DNA from: Hysterangium stoloniferum
Taxonomy: Eukaryota > Basidiomycota > Agaricomycetes > Hysterangiales > Hysterangiaceae
Direction: 5' to 3'
Length of the DNA stretch: 64,000 bases
NCBI GenBank assembly: GCA_015178975.1
Contig: WHVD01000189.1
Coordinates: 62,001-126,000, forward strand
Shown: one piece after another, positions 7,981 through 63,880 of the stretch
How the letters are laid out: every line of letters begins with the position of its first letter
Numbering within the stretch: the stretch's first letter is position 1
The notes under the pieces: model-generated
Told to the model about the DNA's origin: nothing
Databases searched by the model: none
Seen by the model: only the letters and a program-made list of their open reading frames with translations
Made by a program: the position numbers and the translations under genes

Positions 7981-9854
7981 TCAACTGCCATCCCAGGTAT
8001 AATCACGGAGGCTATTGTGCCACCAACGAACTTCGCTCCCGGCACCTTGTTCGTCCCTGATAATGTCTCCAGCTTCCTCAACACTTTCAACCATCTCTGA
8101 TGTCAGGGCACCAGTAATATTTTCTTGCTGCGCTATGTCTGTCGTGCTTTGCGGGCCGGAAGCAGAAATTAAAGCCAACAGGCGGTCTGTAAACGATGAG
8201 AGGGTATAATGTGGAGTATGAAGGACTCGTAAACCAGAACGGAAGGTACGTAGACGTATCGGCGGGTTTGTGACCGTAGGTAAATGGGGTAAGCAGAGCA
8301 GCATAGTTTCGGGTGGAATCAATGCTGTGTAAACAGAGTTAGCCGCATAAGAAGAAAATAATAAAACAAACGAGACACAAAAAGTAAACTCACCCACTCC
8401 TCTGGCACGGTTCCAACCGCCCCATATTTCGTCGAGACCTACTATTCCTCGATTTCGCATCAATCCCTCATTTTTTGTGCCCGTAAGCACGGCCCCAAGC
8501 TCTCTGGCCAGTTGTTCAATCCATTCTTTTTCATCTTTGACCATGTCCGAGGTGACTGCTGTCGTTTGAAGTCCCAGTTGTGAGAGTGACGAACGAATGA
8601 ATTTTGCCTCCTCGGGCTCGTCTGCTACTAATGAGCCAGTGATGGCATCTGGTTGTAGTGCCTTTAAGCGAGCGCGCTGTTCTTCTTGTGCCGTAAGTTT
8701 CGCATTAAGTGACGATGCGAGTTCGACCATTTCTTTTGTTCTAATCATTAATGCTTCTAAATCACCCAGAGCTGAGCGCAGGGTGTCGTTTGTTGCTTTG
8801 GCATTCTCCTCAGCATGCTGAAAGATCCCGTCTGGATAGCAGGTATCGCTTCTCAACATAAAAGAAGGCCGGAGTTATTGACTTACGTATGCCAGACTTG
8901 GAAGCGGTCGTGGAGTCTATCCCATGGTTAGAGCTTGAGGTCTTCCCTTTGGCCTGTAATACACCAGGTCAGTTCGCAGGATAATGCCAAGGCCCAAAAA
9001 TCAGAGGATTTAAGGGCATACCTCCCACGGTTTTCCCACCAGGGTGCGTTTAAGAGCTGCGTAGAACGCCTTGTCGCCACCTTTGCGAAAGCTAATTTTG
9101 ATCGATTCGCGCTCGGAAGAGACAGAGGGGGACTGCGGACGAGAAGCAGGAGCAGACTTCAACATACGCGCTACCTGCGGCTCCAGGGGTGTCGCGCATA
9201 TCTCACAGGAGTGTAGTGATGGGTGGTTAAGAAAAGTGCACGCTGGACAAGGGGTGGGTTCGTGTGTGGGACGAGACACCGCACTGGCAGAAGAGGAGAG
9301 AGTAACTGAGATATTGCCAGAATAGACTGTGTCCTTTGACCTGGATTCCAGGCTCAGGCTAGAGACCTCACGCGTTACGCCACAAAGACCACATTTACGG
9401 GCGGAATCTCCCAGTCCTGGAGGATTTCTGTAGCTGCAAATATGACATATCCAGCTCTCGACATCTCCATCCGTTTCACTGTCAGAATTTGCGAGATATA
9501 AAGTAACTTTTGAAGATGATTTAAGAAAGCCGGTATAGAATTCGGTTTGGTTGACGGAAGACAAAGAGATGACGATGGAGCACGACTCTGGGCGGGAGGC
9601 ATCGACATAGATGAGACGGTGAGTCGTCACATGGACCGTCCCCAGTTGGCGATCAAGTGATTTTTGATTTCTACTCCCATGCAAAATGGGAGTGGGAAAT
9701 GTGAAGGGATCCGGCTTGCAAACACAAGAGAGACAAGGGGAACTCACCCGTCGTAGAGACCTACACCTTCCTGAGTAGCGACTATGCGCTCCTCGTCGTA
9801 GAGGGCAACAGTGACGGGAATTGTGCCGTCGAATTGTTTGGCATAACGTTGCAT
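7981..9854 (-). CDS. VPS36: ESCRT-II subunit Vps36
   Basis: Five exons: 9854-9748, 9670-9022, 8953-8887, 8831-8394 and 8324-7981. They sum to 1605 nt (534 aa). Vps36 is the ESCRT-II subunit that binds ubiquitinated cargo and phosphoinositides on endosomes. The N-terminus reads as a split GLUE domain (VGLYDGN, then VHVTTHRLIYVD). It is interrupted by two NZF zinc fingers, WxCxxC...CGLC at about residue 109 and CPACTF...CEIC at about residue 176, as in yeast Vps36. The C-terminal half has a coiled segment and the EAP45-type winged helices (IVGLDEIWGGWNRARG, LIPPETMLLCLPHLP). The start was chosen because exon 1 encodes LYDEERIVATQEGVGLYDG, the expected GLUE start, and splices in frame. It is divergent from the membrane-protein gene at 10103, with a 248-bp gap. 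Confidence 0.93.
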
Positions 9855-22049: not shown

Positions 22050-23453
22050 CTACCTCACTAAATCCTGCTCTCTAATGAGCCTGAAAAAATCAGCAACAAG
22101 ATACAGACTCCCTGCTAAAATAATTTCTTCGCCTTCTTTGACAGAATCTACTGCCCACATCAAAGCTCGTTTAATAGCTTGCAATTGTGGCTCTTCCCCA
22201 TCGTGCTGAAATAAATGAACTGTTCCTTCCCCATCTTTGACGAGATCCCATGCTACGGCCTCTAACTCATGCAATGGGACATTTTTCACCCAGGGCATAT
22301 CATCGACATCTGTAAATCCCACAAGGGCAACACGATCTCCTGGACACAAAAGGGGTGACAGTGTATCCATAGGTGTCTTCCCTGGCGAAAACGAGAGACC
22401 TAATATGAAAGTTCGGGGAGAACGACGTGAATGCATCTGTAAAACTCCTTCATTATGAATAGGCGTGACTGTCATAAGGTAGGATTGAAGAGCAGTGGCT
22501 GAGGCAGCGTTGTGAGCGCCATCTACCAATACGGTAACATTTCGTATATTGAGGGCTACACTCTGCAAACGGCCCGGCCATCGGGTTTCGAGAACGCCGT
22601 TATACAAAGTCGATGGTGAAATACGACCTAAGATATGTTCAAGCCGGGAGTTAACGGCTTCCTTCATAATTATGCCGAGAGTAGTCAAAGCCGTCCCGAG
22701 ATTATCCAATTGATGTGCCCCGAGGAGAGGGAGATCAAATTCAAGTTCAGTCTGCCAAGGAAGGAAGTGGGTCTTGACAGGCTGGCACCCTGGGAGGTAC
22801 ATAGTCGCCGAGTCGCCACTCTGTCGAGGCGACACCTTGACGGCCTTCACTAAATGGGCTCCCACAGCATGGACGACCTCCCCCACCACAATCTCTACAT
22901 CTGAATGACGCTGTGAGCCAAGGATACAAGGCCTTCCCTTTCTTGCGATCCCCGCCTTTTCTCGAGCAATGGCGCCAAGAGTGTTTCCTAAAAATTGCTG
23001 ATGGTCCAGATCGATACTCGTGATGACAGAGGCCACAATGGCATTATCAGGGAGGACATTCGTGGCATCAAGCCGCCCTCCGAGGCCCACCTCGAATATC
23101 GCAATATCAACAAACGCTCTTTCAAATATTTGAGCGGCGGTTGCTGTCATAATCTCAAAATTGCTGGCGCCAACCCCTTTCGCATCATTCAAGTATTGAA
23201 CTTCAGTTCGTACAGCACGATATGCATCCTCAGAGACGGTGTGACCATTAATAGATATTGCATCCCACACATCTATAAGATGGGGAGAGTTGAATCGACC
23301 CACAGATATATGAGATGCATGAAAGATCGATGAGAGAATGGCGGTGACGCTCCCTTTTCCGTTTGTTCCCGCGACGTGTATCGTAAGTCGTTTATATAGA
23401 GGTAATGCATTGAAGAGCATCTTTACACGTGATAGTGAGAGATCTATGGACAT
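22050..23453 (-). CDS. FOL3: Dihydrofolate synthase (FOL3/FolC family)
   Basis: A single uninterrupted exon of 467 aa from the chosen Met, which opens MSIDLSLSRVKMLFNALP. The frame stays open upstream to 23510, but the 19 extra residues are not family-like. FOL3 joins glutamate to dihydropteroate with ATP. Visible Mur-ligase landmarks are the P-loop GTNGKGSV (residues 29-36), FNSPHL, FEVGLGGRLDATN, SIDLDHQQFLG, AREKAGIARKG, TRWPGRLQ, LVDGAHNAASA and the C-terminal Rossmann part ending EIILAGSLYLVADFF. The intronless form contrasts with every neighbour. The first part of this gene was copied downstream in a tandem duplication (see 24950-25066). Confidence 0.93.
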   Translation of the reverse strand: MSIDLSLSRVKMLFNALPLYKRLTIHVAGTNGKGSVTAILSSIFHASHISVGRFNSPHLIDVWDAISINGHTVSEDAYRAVRTEVQYLNDAKGVGASNFEIMTATAAQIFERAFVDIAIFEVGLGGRLDATNVLPDNAIVASVITSIDLDHQQFLGNTLGAIAREKAGIARKGRPCILGSQRHSDVEIVVGEVVHAVGAHLVKAVKVSPRQSGDSATMYLPGCQPVKTHFLPWQTELEFDLPLLGAHQLDNLGTALTTLGIIMKEAVNSRLEHILGRISPSTLYNGVLETRWPGRLQSVALNIRNVTVLVDGAHNAASATALQSYLMTVTPIHNEGVLQMHSRRSPRTFILGLSFSPGKTPMDTLSPLLCPGDRVALVGFTDVDDMPWVKNVPLHELEAVAWDLVKDGEGTVHLFQHDGEEPQLQAIKRALMWAVDSVKEGEEIILAGSLYLVADFFRLIREQDLVR

Positions 23454-24949
23454 TTTGTGTGTGAAATGTTTCACGCTAAAGGGAAATAATAACTTCACAA
23501 AAGAGAACAAGTCAGCGAGAAGTCACACTGGGGAGTCGTTGCAAGGTTGGAAATATCATAATTAGAAGGAACTCACGTATTTCTCTGTCTTAAAAGGCTT
23601 ATATTACAAGTATGTGTCTATCAACGTAGGGGGATTTAAAGATTGAGCGGCGCCGAACTATCGGTGCGTTCCCGTTTTGTCGATCACCCCCCACACCCCG
23701 AAGGAATTTAACATTGTCAAGGCCACTTAGTCATTTCGGATGATTAAAAAAAATTAACGCTTCAGAGGTCTTATTTCCAGAGGAAATATTATAGTATAAT
23801 TCGCTAATCTCCACTTCCGCCCCGCCAAATTCACACGTGGTCCGTACCATTTTCTTCGAGATGGCCAATTACATCTCTGATTCTTAGGCCATCTGGGGGC
23901 TCTGGCGGATCGACGCATTCATATCCGTATGTCGGTCATGGGCTAAGGGGTATCTAATGGAGTCCAGGAATCCAGCTACCAGTGTTGGTTCTGGCGATCC
24001 GCCTCCTTGTTAGTTTGACAATCTCCGCTCTTTGAACCATGGATTTCTCTGGCTACAGCGGCGACTGGCGGTTGGCGAATGGCGACTGGCTACTTCGCGC
24101 AGTATGGATAAAACCATGGGTCTAGTTGTTCTTGCATTGCAGTTCTCTAGGATGTCATATCCATATTACCAAGTTTCTTTGTCTAAACTTTTACAAGAAG
24201 AATCCCCAAATAACACTCCCTCATCGCATATAACTCCAAGAACCAGACTATATACGAACAGGTCAGGACATATATCGCATTCAACAAGTTCCAGCTCGTA
24301 TTCATCTACTCCCACATATTCGTTTAGTCCCACTTCCTATCCATCCTCCCCAACGTTGTATTCTGGGTCATCTCGCGACTCAAATTACGAAAGGGTCAGT
24401 TCCCTCTTGCTGTCAAGTCTGGTACGGACACTGACTACTATTTCACCACAAGAGGTCTTCCTCGGATGTTCACCAATATATCAATATCCCCTCTCCACTC
24501 AATTTCGAACAAGCGGATAGCTGGATAACTAAAGGGTTGTCCCCAGCATCCGCCGTCATGTATTATTGTGGATGGCCAGGCTGCTCATCAGATGAGATTT
24601 ACCCCACCCGCAACTATGCGCAGACCCACATATTTAACGCTCATGGAAACCAAAGTCCTTTCGTGTGTGTACTCCCCACCTGGTAAGTTGCCTGTGTACA
24701 AGACATTGGAGAATGATTTCTAATGTGCAGTTCCAGCAAAAGGGTATTTACTCGTGCTCAAGATGCTCGTTCCCATTGTCAAAGACATAACCGCCGGGCA
24801 TAAAATAGGAATGTCAAGTGTACTTCCCTTGCTCGGCTGCGCCGACATCTGTGATAGAAATGTATTCAATATTTATCTGTATTAATTTATGTGTGGAAGA
24901 ATCGAGTGAAAGTTGATATCTTTAGTAGGAATCTCCTAAGTCTCTTTAG
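23337..24949. repeat. Segmental tandem duplication, unit A
   Basis: Unit A runs from inside the 5' end of FOL3, through its promoter, and through the first zinc-finger gene to about 24949. Unit B begins at 24950 with 'aatggcagtgacgctc', matching 'aatggcggtgacgctc' at 23337. The 3' ends also match (gaatcgagtgaaagttgat at about 24901 and 26611). Divergence is moderate, highest outside coding exons. Confidence 0.85.
24152..24803 (+). CDS. C2H2 zinc-finger protein, tandem copy 1
   Basis: Three exons: 24152-24394, 24453-24682 and 24731-24803. They sum to 546 nt (181 aa). The N-terminal 80 residues start MSYPYYQVSLSKLL and are extremely rich in Ser, Thr, Tyr and Pro. The C-terminus holds two fingers. 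The first is CGWPGCSSDE..., with His residues in QTHIFNAH. The second is CVLPTC (Cys split by the last intron), then RVFTRAQDARSHCQRH. A two-finger C-terminal pair after a low-complexity region suggests a DNA-binding regulator; the target is unknown. The intron positions and phases are identical in copy 2. Confidence 0.8.
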
Positions 24950-50188: not shown

Positions 50189-53100
50189 ATGAGTCGGCTC
50201 TTGATAAAAAATATACCAGTAAATGCCACTCCAGAGTCTCTACGCACCCACTTATCGTCTACGAAAAACGGTTCGTTGACGATTACGGATCTTCACATAG
50301 CCAAAAAACCAGATGGTACACCTCGTCGTTTTGCGTTCGTTGGTTTCAAGAGTGAAGAGCAAGCGACTGCTGCGACGCAGTATTTTCACGGCACATTTTT
50401 GGGGTCACAGAAGATTACTGTAGAAGTTGTAAAGGTATCGGTCTTGTTTCGTTCTAACTAGCTTACATTGTTTTAATGATTTGATAAAAGGGTGTTAAAG
50501 ATGCGCCAACACCCAGACCGAACAAACGGCCACGGCTGAACGGGCCTGACACTTCGAAGGGACCTTCAGGTGTTAAAACATTTACTAAAACCGTTTCTAC
50601 CAAGACGACAGAATCTAAGGGAGATGATGCTTTAACAACTGAATTTCTTTCGATTATGAATCCAGGACGAAAGGGTCCAGCATGGGCAGACGGCCAGGCA
50701 TCAAATCATCCGATTCCTTTACAATCAGAAAAGGAAAAGCACCAAATATTCACAAGAACAGCACAAGACACTGATATGAAAGATGACCCTATTACTACTG
50801 ATAATGCTACTTCTGACCTTGACTGGTTGAAGTCCCGTATGTCAATGGGCATCCGTCAAGTTAAAGACTTCGAGCAATCTGATGATGACCAGGAGGCCCA
50901 GGATCACCAGCCGCTGGTACCAACCACGGTAATGCTTATTTCTCTCGTTAATTGTGTCTTCGTCTTGATTTGAGTAGGTGGCAGAAGATGTTTCCGATGA
51001 TCCGAAGCAAGTAACGCGGCAAACTATACTGGCAACCGCCCGTCTTTTTGTCCGCAACTTAACATTTTTTTGCACATCGGAAGAACTTCGAGAGTTGTTT
51101 GCCCCTTTTGGGGAAATCCAACAGGTGAATTCTACTTCCCTTTTTTTTTTTGGTCGCATTGCGCAGCCGCATGATGTATAATCACATAGGGACATCAGAT
51201 CATCTTCAAAGAGATGGGATGCTGATCCTCAGGGAAACCGATAGTAGAAATAGTCTGAACTGAATCAACTTCCATAGCCTTCGCAGTCTCATAATCACTT
51301 TCGCTGACACAAATCATCTTTTAGGTAAATACCTCTGTTCAACCTTCGAGTCTGTCAAACAGACATTACGTGATGTATAAAATAAATAGGGACATCATAA
51401 CCAACTTCAAAGGAGTTGGGATGCTGATCCTCAGGGAAACCGATAGTAGAAAATTATCTGACCTCCCCCCCCCCTGTTTTTTGCGGTTTCATTGATCACT
51501 TTGCTGATATGGTAACTTTTTAGGTGACTATTAATTTGATTTCTTCATCAAGCGAACGTTGTTATATGATGTATAAAATGCATAGGGACATCAGACCCGC
51601 TCTGAAGGAGTCGGGGATGTTGACCCTCTGGGAAACCGATAGTAGAAAATATCTGAATCTAGATTACGCCACTCCCTTAACGCTAGTGGCTGACAAAACG
51701 ATTTAGGTTCATATTCCTCTTACGCCCGAACATACATCTAAAGGGCTTGCTTTTGTAACTTACGCTAACTCAGCGGACGCGGTCTCTGCATGGGAAGCTT
51801 TGGATGGTACCACATTCCAAGGTCGACTTCTTCATATTTTAGCAGGAGTGGAACGGCGGAAGGACGCTGCTATCACAGAAGGTATTACTTATCTATGGCT
51901 TTAGTCATATCTGACAAATACTCAAGGTGGAAAGAAGAAGAGTCTCAAGGAGGAGAGAGGAGAAAAACGGAGAAAGGAAGCTGGAAAGGAATTTAATTGG
52001 GGCATGTTGTATATGAACGTAAGATTATTCCCATCCCCGCCGTGAGCTACTTTTTGACCAAACTTACTATTACATAGAGTGATGCTGTGGCAACTTCAAT
52101 TGCCGATAGAATGAACATCTCCAAGGCGGATATACTTGGAGCATCGGAGTCTGAGGAAGGAGGCACCTCACATAATCCCGCTGTCAAGTTAGCATTGGCA
52201 GAGACGCATGTCATTCAAGAGACGAGGCGATATTTTGAGGATGTATGCACGCTTTTATTTTACCCAGGTGTCTGTGTTAACCTTGGTATTAGCAAGGTGT
52301 TGTGTTGGAATCTCTAGCTAATCGGTCCACTCCACGATCACGGACCATTATCTTGGTCAAGAACATCCCGTACGGCACGACAACGGAGACATTACGAACG
52401 ATGTTTGAGCCCCATGGGGTCATTGCGCGATTATTAATTCCACCTTCTGGGACATTGGCAGTCGTTGAATATACTCATATTGAGGAGGCCAGCCGTGCTT
52501 TCCGGGCCCTGGCATACAGACGCTTGGGAAACTCCATTGTTTACCTGGAATGGGCACCCGAAGGTCTGCTAGTGGATGATACAGCTCGTGGATCAGCCAC
52601 AGCTGTCAAGCCGGTCACAATTCCTGAGCAAGAAGAGAAAACGGTCGACGAACAACTTTCGATACGAAGAGGATCAACCCTTTTTGTCAAGAACCTCTCT
52701 TTTACTACTACTACGGAACGATTTGCTGCTATATTCCGCAATCTTCCTTCTTTCTCTTTTGCTCGAATTCAGATGAAACCTTCCCCGGCAAATCATAAGG
52801 TCAAGGCACAGCCAGAACAAGAGAAGCTGAGCATGGGATATGGATTTGTAGGATTTGCGGATCCGGAGGCCGCACAAAAGGCATTGAAGAGTATGCAAGG
52901 CTTTGTATTGGATGGGCATAAATTGCACGTTACATTTGCTGGTCGTGGGGCCGATAATGACGATAAACAAGACCTTGGTATAGGGAAGGCGAAGACCACC
53001 AAAATGATTGTGAAGAACGTGCCATTCGAGGCGAGCAAGAAGGATATTCGCGATCTCTTTGGGTAAGCAAGTATTTATGCCCCTGGTTCAAGTGGATACT

Positions 53101-53410
53101 GATTGTTCATTGAAGTGTTTATGGGACGCTCAAGTCAGTTCGGTTACCCAAAAACTTCGATGCCCGTGCGAGAGGTTTTGCTTTCTTAGATTTCGTATCA
53201 CGACAAGAAGCAGAAAATGCTTTCTCTGCCTTACGACATACCCATTTACTTGGTCGACATCTTGTTCTGGATTGGGCTACAGAAGGAGAGCAGGATGTTG
53301 AAGCCCTCAGGAGGAAGGTCGGCGTTGGTTTTGGTAAAGGTGGAGAATTACCTGGCAGGAAAAGGAAGCTGGACATCGCAGTGGATGGAGGTGAGGATGA
53401 GGATGTGTAG
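50189..53410 (+). CDS. MRD1: Multiple RNA-binding domain protein Mrd1
   Basis: A multi-exon gene encoding five RRMs, the hallmark of Mrd1/RBM19, which binds pre-rRNA and is needed for 18S processing in the SSU processome. RRM1 opens MSRLLIKNIPVNATPESLRT, with RRFAFVGF as RNP1. RRM2 is ARLFVRNLTFFCTSEELREL with KGLAFVTY. RRM3 is TIILVKNIPYGTTTETLRTM. RRM4 is STLFVKNLSFTTTTERF with MGYGFVGF. RRM5 is TKMIVKNVPFEASKKDIRDL, continuing after an intron with RARGFAFLDF. Linkers are Lys/Glu-rich, and the C-terminus ends GGEDEDV. Exon 1 is 50189-50434. The intron inside RRM2 (51125-51706, between EIQQ and VHIPLTPE) is 582 bp, ten times its siblings, and holds three snoRNA-like units. Confidence 0.94.
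51171..51258 (+). ncRNA. Candidate box C/D snoRNA, copy 1 (intronic)
   Basis: The unit has a C-like box ATGATGT at 51171 and a D box CTGA at 51255-51258, 88 nt apart end to end. Inside is a hairpin (gaca-CATC ... CATCT-tcaaag-AGATG ... GATG). The invariant tract aaaccgatagtagaaa lies just before the D box, where the rRNA guide of a C/D snoRNA normally sits. The unit lies 46 nt after the intron donor and 66 nt before the local acceptor, the usual geometry for an intronic snoRNA. No terminal stem is obvious and the rRNA target was not identified. Confidence 0.5.
51370..51461 (+). ncRNA. Candidate box C/D snoRNA, copy 2 (intronic)
   Basis: C-like box GTGATGT at 51370, D box CTGA at 51458-51461, length 92 nt. 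The inner hairpin is CCAACT-tcaaagg-AGTTGG, bracketed by CATC and GATG. The guide-like tract before the D box is the same as in copy 1. It lies 45 nt from the unit's donor and 62 nt from its acceptor. Confidence 0.5.
51566..51656 (+). ncRNA. Candidate box C/D snoRNA, copy 3 (intronic)
   Basis: C-like box ATGATGT at 51566, D box CTGA at 51653-51656, length 91 nt. The inner stem is CCCG...CGGG, bracketed by CATC and GATG. The inner D'-like CTGA of copies 1 and 2 is TTGA here, so this copy is the most diverged. The aaaccgatagtagaaaat tract is unchanged. It lies 42 nt from the donor and 50 nt from the acceptor. Confidence 0.45.
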
Positions 53411-53599: not shown

Positions 53600-53915
53600 C
53601 ATGAAGCTCGAGCTGGTATGGAAGCCTGCCAATGCCGCTATGTCAGAACAACTTAAATCCCTTGAAGATGCACATACCTGGACTCTAGTCGAACCACTAT
53701 CCAATGTCAATGTCATCGGATGTTGCTGGGTCTTCAGAAGGAAACGTGATGCTGGTGGCAATGTCGTGAAGTATAAGGCTAGCCTCATTGCACAGGGATT
53801 CAAACAAACGCCTGGTATTGATTTTGGCGATACGTTTGCACATGTTGCAAAGCTAACAACAAACCGCATTGTCCTGGCCCTATTCTCTTCAAAAACCTTA
53901 TTGACATCAAAATGA
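53600..53915 (+). mobile_element. Ty1/copia reverse transcriptase fragment
   Basis: The plus strand encodes the N-terminal part of a copia-type RT (RVT_2): SEQLKSLEDAHTWTLVEPLS, IGCCWVFRRKRDAGGNVVKY, KASLIAQGFKQTPGIDFGDT and FAHVAKLTTNR. The frame ends shortly after, before the YVDD catalytic site, so this is a truncated relic. It begins about 190 bp after the MRD1 stop codon. Confidence 0.85.
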
Positions 53916-61634: not shown

Positions 61635-63880
61635 TTATACTGAAGTACACGGAGTCGGAGATTGTTGGAATCTGGAACATAGATACGTCCATCGAGACGG
61701 ATAAAGCCTTGAGAGTCTTGTGACCATCGGTTGGTCGGGATTGTCAGGAACTTCTAGGTGTGGCTTGAGAGCTGGATCAGAAGTGAGTGCGGAAAGGATA
61801 TCTTGATGTAATTGCTCAATGTCCATAATCATGATGCTACGCATAATTGGATAGTAGAGGGAAGTCACTCGAATAGATGTGGAAAGTTGTTGCATTGTAA
61901 AAACTGGTTTCAAGTTATGCGGATTAACAACGGCGTAGTTACTTTCCCCCTCTTTAGGATAGACATCCCATTGTCGAGTCATGGCATCTGGTTTTCCACC
62001 AAGATGTCCAGGTCGGAAACAGATAATCATGTTGAAAGTGGAAAGGAATTCAGACCAGCGGGCTTGCCGGTGGGTTAAAAGTTTAGTGGTAGAAAAATAT
62101 TCGAGATTTTTGTGATCAGTAACAATGTCAATGGGAGTTGTGGAACCTTCGAGATACTGGCGCCAATGTTTGAAAGCCTTGAAAATCGCCAAAAGTTCCT
62201 TATCATGAACATCATAGTTGAGTTTGGACACTTTCAGTGTCCGAGAAAGGAATGCGACTGGATGAATTTCACCATCAGAATCTTGAATGGAAAGAATCAC
62301 AGCAATTGCATAATCGGAAGCATTGGTTTCCACAATAATCGGAACATCAGGTTTCCAATGGGAAAGAATCGGGGCAGAAGTAAAAGCATTTTTTAAAGTC
62401 TGGAAGGCGGAGCAGCATTTGTCGTCAAAGACCCATGGTTGAGTTTTACGGGTAAGACGAGTGAGTGGTACTGTAATATCCAAGTAATTCCAAATAAAAT
62501 GATGGTAAAAGTTGGCGAAACCTAAAAATGACTGAATGTCCTTGACTTTCCATGGTTCGGGCCAATCACGGACAACTTGAACCTTGGTTTCGTCCATACG
62601 AAGACCCTCAGGTCTGATAATGAAACCTAAGTATTCAATAGAATCCATGTCAAAGTAGCATTTTTTACTGTTGGCGAGAAGACCGTTTTTACGGAGTCTT
62701 CAGAAAACTTCACAGACCTGTTCATTGTGAAGAGCAGGATCCTCGGAAAATACCAAAATGTCGTCCAAATAGACTATAACACATACGTCAAGCATGTCAG
62801 AAAATATATCATTAACAAAACGTTGAAAAGTGGAAGGTGCATTGGTAAGGCCGAACGGTATAACCAACCATTCAAAGGATCCATAGTGAGTCCGAAAAGC
62901 AGTTTTCCATTCATCACCCTCGGCAATTCGAACCAAATGATAAGCGTGTTTGAGGTCTATTTTGGTGTAAATTCGAGCTTTCCGTGGGGTGTCGAGTAAA
63001 TTGGTAACGAGTGGAAGTGGATACTTATCTTTCTGTGTGATGGAATTTAATCCTCTGAAATCAACACAGAGTCGAAGGGAGCCATCCTTCTTTCTGACGA
63101 AAAGGATGGGTGCTCTGTACGGAGACTTTGAGGGACGGATAAAACCTATCGACAGATGTTCATCCAGGAACTCCCAAATAGACGAAAGTTCTGATTGGGA
63201 CAATGGGTAAATAGGTCCTAACAGAGGGTTTGAACTGGGCTCAATATCAATTTTTAAGTCGTAGGGCCTATGTGGTGCAAGCCTGTCAGCTTTTTGCTTA
63301 CTGAAAATGTCCGTGAAATCATGGTATTTTTCGGGAACTCCTTCCAGGTCGGCTTTTAGCTTGGATAATTCTGGAGTCACAAAACATCCAGATGCTTCAT
63401 CAACTTTTAAGCTGATGGAAAAACATTGCAAACCATCCAGTTCACTCGCCCTAACAAATGCCAAAGCATTGATGAGAGAGATTTTTGGAGGCCCGGATGT
63501 TTCAGTAGAAGCCGTTGATGCCATTGATGCCAAAAAGGCATTGGCCAGAAAAGACGCTGCAGGAGGAACTGAAGTGTCAGGAATCCAGAAATTAATACTG
63601 CCCAATACCCAGTCAATCAACAGATTATATCGGGTGAGCCAGTTGTATCCAAGAACTACCGAACAGCTAGAGTCCAACTGTGTTACGAAAAAGGTAACCG
63701 TCTGGGATGTTCCACAAGGGAACCAGATAGACATGTCGCAGGCTTGGGTAATTGCCGTATTGCTAGTGCCATCAAACAAATGCAAGGAAATTGTGGGAAC
63801 AGAATAGAGTTTCAGATTATGTTTTGTGGCAAAGGTGGTATCTACAAAACAGTGTGTGGAGCTGGAATCTATCAGAGCTC
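61635..63880 (-). pseudogene. Gypsy protease, reverse transcriptase and RNase H (with stop codon)
   Basis: From about 63880 the minus strand reads ALIDSSSTHCFVDTTFATKH (protease, with DSS where DSG or DTG is usual), preceded by a TGA. The RT core follows: IRPSKSPYRAPILFVRKKDG, LRLCVDFRGLN, KIDLKHAYHLVRIAEGDEWK, TAFRTHYGSFEWLVIPFGLT and the active site VIVYLDDILVF. A TGA at about 62697-62699 splits RT after the QVCEVF segment. The frame continues with GLLANSKKCYF, then SIEYLGFIIRPEGL. RNase H follows, with ETNASDYAIAVIL and KLNYDVHDKELLAIFKAFKH. It ends near 61635 in the integrase linker. Confidence 0.88.

Follow-up and report, generated by a model that had tools for sequence, protein, structure and literature searches.

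Intron 3 of the gene MRD1 (multiple RNA-binding domain protein 1) of Hysterangium stoloniferum, located within RRM2, is a composite of three homologous units, each of which has the anatomy of a complete intron and carries its own box C/D snoRNA of the snR64/U74 type, with no bases between one unit and the next. Three complete intron-like units separated by zero-length exons, with a C/D snoRNA in each, had been proposed in the initial annotation of this DNA, and the sequence anatomy supports the proposal. The explanation that we favour, with moderate confidence, is that a single snoRNA intron was duplicated in tandem twice and that the units are probably removed stepwise, with the release of three guide RNAs.

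In the window, which is the whole analysed stretch of 64,000 nucleotides, MRD1 extends over 50189..53410 on the plus strand, as established by an exon-joined model, Pfam and protein relatives. From ATG to stop the model consists of 8 exons and 7 introns and encodes 775 aa with five RRM_1 stretches recognised by Pfam. Among the best 120 of 1761 MRD1 relatives, the closest was the protein of Hysterangium stoloniferum itself (P0001; 99% identity over the full length), the sole difference from the window MRD1 being situated at the edge of a different intron. The public protein contains no sequence from intron 3, its gene model skipping the 582 nt as one intron, and the MRD1 reading frame is continuous across it (phase 0, CAG|GTT). 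The length of 582 nt claimed earlier for the RRM2 intron is confirmed by this in-frame model; the six sibling introns, about tenfold shorter, are indeed small as had been stated, with a modelled range of 45-59 nt in place of the claimed 50-60. A truncated reverse-transcriptase piece (RVT_2, 53673-53885, plus strand), which we take to be copia-type, lies about 260 nt beyond the MRD1 stop codon. Elsewhere in the window, a retrotransposon remnant whose RVT_1 and RT RNase H domains occupy adjacent open frames (61638-63785), a gene piece of the EAP30/Vps36 family (7984-8859) and a Mur ligase middle domain (22053-23510) were found on the minus strand, the last in a gene that we presume is possibly folylpolyglutamate-synthase-like.

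The composite intron (51125..51706, plus strand; present in our model and absent from P0001) divides into unit 1 (51125..51324, 200 nt, GTGAAT...CTGAC...TTTTAG), unit 2 (51325..51523, 199 nt, GTAAAT...CTGAT...TTTTTAG) and unit 3 (51524..51706, 183 nt, GTGACT...CTGAC...ATTTAG), all on the plus strand. At the first junction (51304..51330, plus strand) a CTGAC branch-like site and a TTTTAG acceptor abut the donor GTAAAT, and at the second (51504..51529, plus strand) CTGAT and TTTTTAG abut GTGACT; the AG|GT contacts at 51324|51325 and 51523|51524 are exact, as first reported. Re-measurement likewise bore out the donor, snoRNA body, CTGAY branch-like site and TTTAG acceptor described for every unit, together with snoRNA bodies of 88, 92 and 91 nt, donor-to-C-box distances of 46, 45 and 42 nt and D-box-to-acceptor distances of 66, 62 and 50 nt. 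One branch-like site per unit lies 37-49 nt beyond the snoRNA D box. The donor distances fall inside the range of 41-60 nt described for intronic snoRNAs of N. crassa.

The bodies from C box to D box are 81-85% identical pairwise, and in no pair did any of 500 single-base shuffles equal the alignment score. The similarity of the 5' flanks is no greater than that of shuffles (score reached by 185, 202 and 142 of 500), and the 3' flanks are weakly similar (0, 0 and 55 of 500; 4, 11 and 289 of 500 once the last 6 nt are taken away). Despite these drifted flanks, every unit has retained its donor (GTRANT), its CTGAY site and its acceptor (TTTAG). With patterns composed after the junctions were already known, a CTRAY...YAG|GTR junction is expected by chance at 0.12% and 0.14% (20,000 dinucleotide shuffles per spacer). 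On the same footing, 4 of the 25 GT in intron 3 agree with GTRAGT in five of its six positions, three of them being the unit starts, and among six CTRAY sites the three in which the first AG ends 17-21 nt further on are the unit ends. The unit donors match GTRAGT at 5, 5 and 5 of 6 places and the sibling donors at 3, 4, 3, 5, 4 and 5; thus the unit donors are no weaker than those of the other MRD1 introns. Such persistence of sites amid drifting surroundings would be best explained by their use.

The junction signature, likewise composed once the junctions were known, is as well not common generally, since CTGAYN{4,20}TTTAGGTRANT occurs 9 times in the assembly of 111 Mb, twice within this intron, against 64 occurrences of the reversed control pattern. 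The remaining 7 matches were inspected by eye, non-exhaustively, and no fused snoRNA intron was noticed among them; two (L026 and L033) resemble ordinary coding context. A splice-site model trained de novo on 264 kb gave 64 candidate introns with no consensus and was discarded as noise.

The box C/D consensus is RUGAUGA for the C box and CUGA for the D box. SnoRNA 1, assigned to the snR64/U74 type by sub-threshold Rfam matches and anatomy, occupies 51171..51258 (plus strand), with C box ATGATGT (51171-51177), D' box CAGA (51196-51199), C' box ATGCTGA (51219-51225) and D box CTGA (51255-51258); its guide ATAGGGACA is located at 51186-51194 and a second rRNA-complementary stretch, GATAGTAGA, at 51240-51248. 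In snoRNA 2 (51370..51461, plus strand) the boxes are GTGATGT (C, 51370-51376), a weak CATA (D', 51396-51399), ATGCTGA (C', 51421-51427) and CTGA (D, 51458-51461), with the guide at 51386-51394 and GATAGTAGA at 51442-51450. SnoRNA 3 (51566..51656, plus strand) has ATGATGT (C, 51566-51572), CAGA (D', 51592-51595), ATGTTGA (C', 51617-51623) and CTGA (D, 51653-51656), its guide at 51582-51590 and GATAGTAGA at 51638-51646. The D' and C' boxes were assigned by direct reading in all three. The C box is RTGATGT, with a final T, and the D box CTGA in every unit; the guide ATAGGGACA is invariant in all three, and ATAGGGACATCA and GGGAAACCGATAGTAGAAA are unchanged across them.

A hairpin between D' and C' folds in each of the three units. 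Going up from the base, units 1, 2 and 3 have A-U, A-U and C-G as their third pair and U-A, A-U and G-C as their fourth, differences taken from a reading of the three folds. No terminal stem of note was seen beside the boxes in the folds of the units.

Rfam searches at curated gathering thresholds gave zero matches in the window. Below threshold, 9 matches were obtained in the stretch, of which 4 were to snR64 kin, on the correct strand and with at least one per unit: snoR44_J54 in unit 3 (24.4 bits, E 0.038) and unit 2 (20.1 bits, E 0.45), and in unit 1 snosnR64 (22.8 bits, E 0.12) and Afu_335 (18.5 bits, E 0.94), the latter counted among the kin on the ground that both guide stretches are in common. 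The other 5 (14.8-18.6 bits) belong to unrelated families, and three of these lie on the minus strand. Membership in the snR64/U74 family rests on guide and anatomy, because the best scores stay below the curated thresholds (24.4 vs 48 bits for snoR44_J54 and 22.8 vs 38 for snosnR64). In the published descriptions, snR64, SNORD74 (U74), snoR44 and CD36 share with the units the guide AUAGGGACA beside D', a second stretch around UAGUAGA, a length of about 90 nt and, in N. crassa, an intronic position; the units differ by their three copies per intron, the final T of the C box and a D' box of CAGA or CATA. Judged by sequence, the intron 3 snoRNAs are snR64/U74-type guides, predicted to act on one LSU rRNA 2'-O-methylation, and no new kind. 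A search of the genome with one snoRNA pattern returned 1 match, which is this locus, and a second pattern returned 2, namely units 1 and 2, unit 3 falling outside that pattern.

The complements of both guide stretches adjoin as TGTCCCTATCTACTATC (TGTCCCTA with TCTACTATC immediately behind it), which has 1 exact match in the assembly. Extra pairing between snoRNA and rRNA was reportedly described by van Nues in 2011, a study cited in PMC4105744 and PMC8817022. The fragment of LSU rRNA that bears the target is about 50 nt long and lies on the minus strand inside a 3-kb locus (L022:1478-1528; C334 near 380,150). Searched alone, it matched LSU_rRNA_eukarya with E 2.3e-5 and 27.2 bits (gathering 50), and Rfam at gathering on the 3-kb locus gave no match; the isolated fragment may belong to a repeat or represent a pseudogene. 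A search of the assembly with an LSU word gave no match, and the rDNA itself was not found by it. CD36 of N. crassa, a member of the snR64/snoR44/U74 family, is described as an intronic RNA of 90 nt with a D' guide for 26S-Cm2299, and a published family table pairs yeast Cm2337 with snR64 and human Cm3820 with U74. By such family tables, and with the LSU seen here as a fragment only, the target site corresponds to the position of yeast C2337. Mrd1p has been termed an essential small-subunit factor (PMC5384785), so that the earlier statement that host and product act in one pathway holds loosely: the snoRNA family serves LSU rRNA methylation and Mrd1p the small subunit.

The intron site was compared in the best 120 of 1761 MRD1 relatives together with the window protein (121 rows), and a length flag was raised at the site of intron 3 in 6 of the 121. 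Comparison with the snoRNA took in two flagged rows, P0113 and P0106, and left out P0073, P0103, P0115 and P0120. The insert GHLILHGYADPREPIVEKLSD of P0113 (Suillus tomentosus) scored 34.9 against unit 2 DNA, the maximum in 200 shuffled peptides being 19.0, with 30.4 against unit 1 and 28.8 against unit 3 (shuffled maxima 22.4 and 22.6, respectively), in a fit that spans 14 of 21 residues and needs three 1-nt gaps. For P0106 (Hygrophoropsis aurantiaca) the insert GHQILHEYVDPQGKPI scored 25.9 against unit 1 with eight gap bases (shuffled maximum 17.7) and 25.3 against units 2 and 3 (shuffled maxima 20.6). By eye, the initial residues of both Boletales inserts can be read as GGACATCTGAT or GGACATCAGAT, i.e. 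guide plus D' box, and in P0113 the distance from D box to acceptor, counted from residues, is about 64 nt vs 66, 62 and 50 here. From these fits we take it that the gene models of P0113 and P0106 adopted part of a snoRNA as exon. Hence a snoRNA intron at this MRD1 site predates Hysterangium stoloniferum, because two Boletales models contain translated snoRNA pieces there; such protein models can reveal the last unit only. Searches with the two inserts recovered the query proteins alone (1 of 1 and 1 of 11 candidates). An MRD1 scan matched its pattern in 1 stretch of viral contigs and 16 stretches of prokaryote genome contigs, with 0 confirmed in either, and the snoRNA DNA pattern had 0 matches in viral contigs.

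According to the explanation that we favour, an ancestral MRD1 intron already holding one snR64/U74-type snoRNA would have been duplicated in tandem twice, with breakpoints within the AGGT that borders the intron on either side (donor CAG|GT, acceptor TTTAG|GT). Since the two borders have this AG|GT in common, such an event would create zero-length exons directly. The units would probably be spliced out successively from 5' to 3': once unit 1 is out, CAG would stand directly ahead of GTAAAT; once unit 2 is out, directly ahead of GTGACT; and the excision of unit 3 would restore CAG|GTT in frame. Each lariat would contain one snoRNA, normally spaced from the branch site of its unit, and three guides for the same LSU rRNA 2'-O-methylation (yeast Cm2337) would be released by trimming. 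Five of the seven possible incomplete splicing states were examined, each reaching a stop after 18, 56 or 60 codons, and the other two begin with unit 1 or unit 2, inside which stops occur at codons 18 and 56; all three units must therefore be removed, since every incomplete state meets a stop. Unit 3 is open for 60 codons in the MRD1 frame and ends on the TAG of its acceptor, so a transcript halted one step short of completion would code for MRD1 in truncated form, with 60 residues appended.

The main rival to stepwise splicing is removal of the 582 nt in one step, by which the first donor and the last acceptor alone would be used, the snoRNAs would be cut from one polycistronic precursor or lariat and the internal sites would be relics. 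The public protein P0001 drops exactly the whole stretch, as one long intron predicts, and clusters of snoRNA genes within introns have been described in rice and Drosophila (PMC2780460). We nevertheless consider this reading rather unlikely, given that the internal donors, branch-like sites and acceptors persist at normal spacing though homology of the 5' flanks is lost, that 582 nt is about 10 times the size of the sibling introns and that about 450 and 245 nt would separate snoRNAs 1 and 2, respectively, from the acceptor. Joining of the first donor to any of the three acceptors, with internal donors little or not used, is an arrangement that Luo et al. could not exclude for ascomycete complex introns (PMC3596301); here it seems improbable, as products at acceptors 1 and 2 hit stops 56 and 60 codons on and the internal donors equal the best modelled MRD1 donors in consensus match.

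The origin of the units can be questioned as well. Independent snoRNA introns might have been inserted side by side, without copying in place, by the "excision and insertion" of Luo et al., who report moving snoRNA introns (PMC3596301), and the mutually unlike 5' flanks would agree with this; all bodies, however, belong to one family at 81-85% identity and neither snoRNA pattern found a further copy in the genome, which leaves independent insertion with a small chance of being correct. That the units are decayed, functionless repeats, for which the weak Rfam scores alone speak, is hardly credible: neither rRNA-complementary stretch varies among the three units, the hairpin forms in every unit from different pairs, and the gene models of two Boletales contain recognisable snoRNA sequence. 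An assembly error was rejected, the unit bodies differing by 15-19%.

The initial annotation knew of no described case of this arrangement, which is wrong in kind, because juxtaposed exonless snoRNA introns have been published for non-coding hosts in fungi, ascomycetes among them (PMC3596301, PMC5033589). In the complex snoRNA introns of Luo et al. (2013, PMC3596301), several snoRNA introns likewise abut without an exon, and their products were read as stepwise 5'-to-3' removal or alternative acceptors. Full splice signals in each unit and zero intervening bases, by which complex introns are recognised, are found in MRD1 too. The set of Luo et al. is described as non-protein-coding cluster hosts with different snoRNAs and exon loss, whereas MRD1 is a protein gene with copies of one intron; intron 3 is thus a variant and not a plain member of the published complex introns, because its host is protein-coding. 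According to the same report (PMC3596301), the clustered snoRNAs of fungi then known had independent genes or non-protein-coding hosts. Single snoRNAs inside introns of protein genes are described elsewhere as ordinary in N. crassa. The snR57-55-61 and snR41-70 clusters of Candida/Debaryomyces (PMC5033589) are alike in their C/D snoRNA introns, for which recursive splicing and an exon size of zero were described, and unlike in being non-coding polycistrons with different snoRNAs.

Stwintrons (PMC8469720), in which one intervening sequence is removed by successive U2 reactions, would resemble intron 3 if its splicing is stepwise. In the description given there, the introns of a stwintron are nested, with a splice element of one split by the other, whereas the MRD1 units merely abut; with none situated inside the donor, branch-like site or acceptor of another, a stwintron was rejected. 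In the duplication case of PMC4974935, AGGT likewise gives acceptor and donor at the duplication junction; the classical case presented there copies exon sequence, whereas in MRD1 it would be an entire intron that was copied, with nothing added to the coding sequence. Among the matches listed in the open-licence literature, none described homologous fused snoRNA introns in a protein-coding host, and none described snoRNAs in MRD1. What seems to be new is that the host is protein-coding, that the fungus is a basidiomycete and that the units are homologous.

With about equal weight for and against, we propose that MRD1 is a protein gene in which the same site is spliced three times via two zero-length exons, each step yielding one copy of the guide, and that the intron would serve as a snoRNA dosage device, built by duplication of one whole intron at its AG|GT ends with the protein left intact. 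Intron 3 would represent a marked natural substrate in which to follow the recursive splicing of an mRNA in a fungus with short introns, its intermediates, lariats and snoRNAs being distinguishable because each unit has its own sequence. It would also offer a concrete route by which whole introns may multiply with the protein unaltered, the conserved snoRNA serving as a tracer across the Agaricomycetes.
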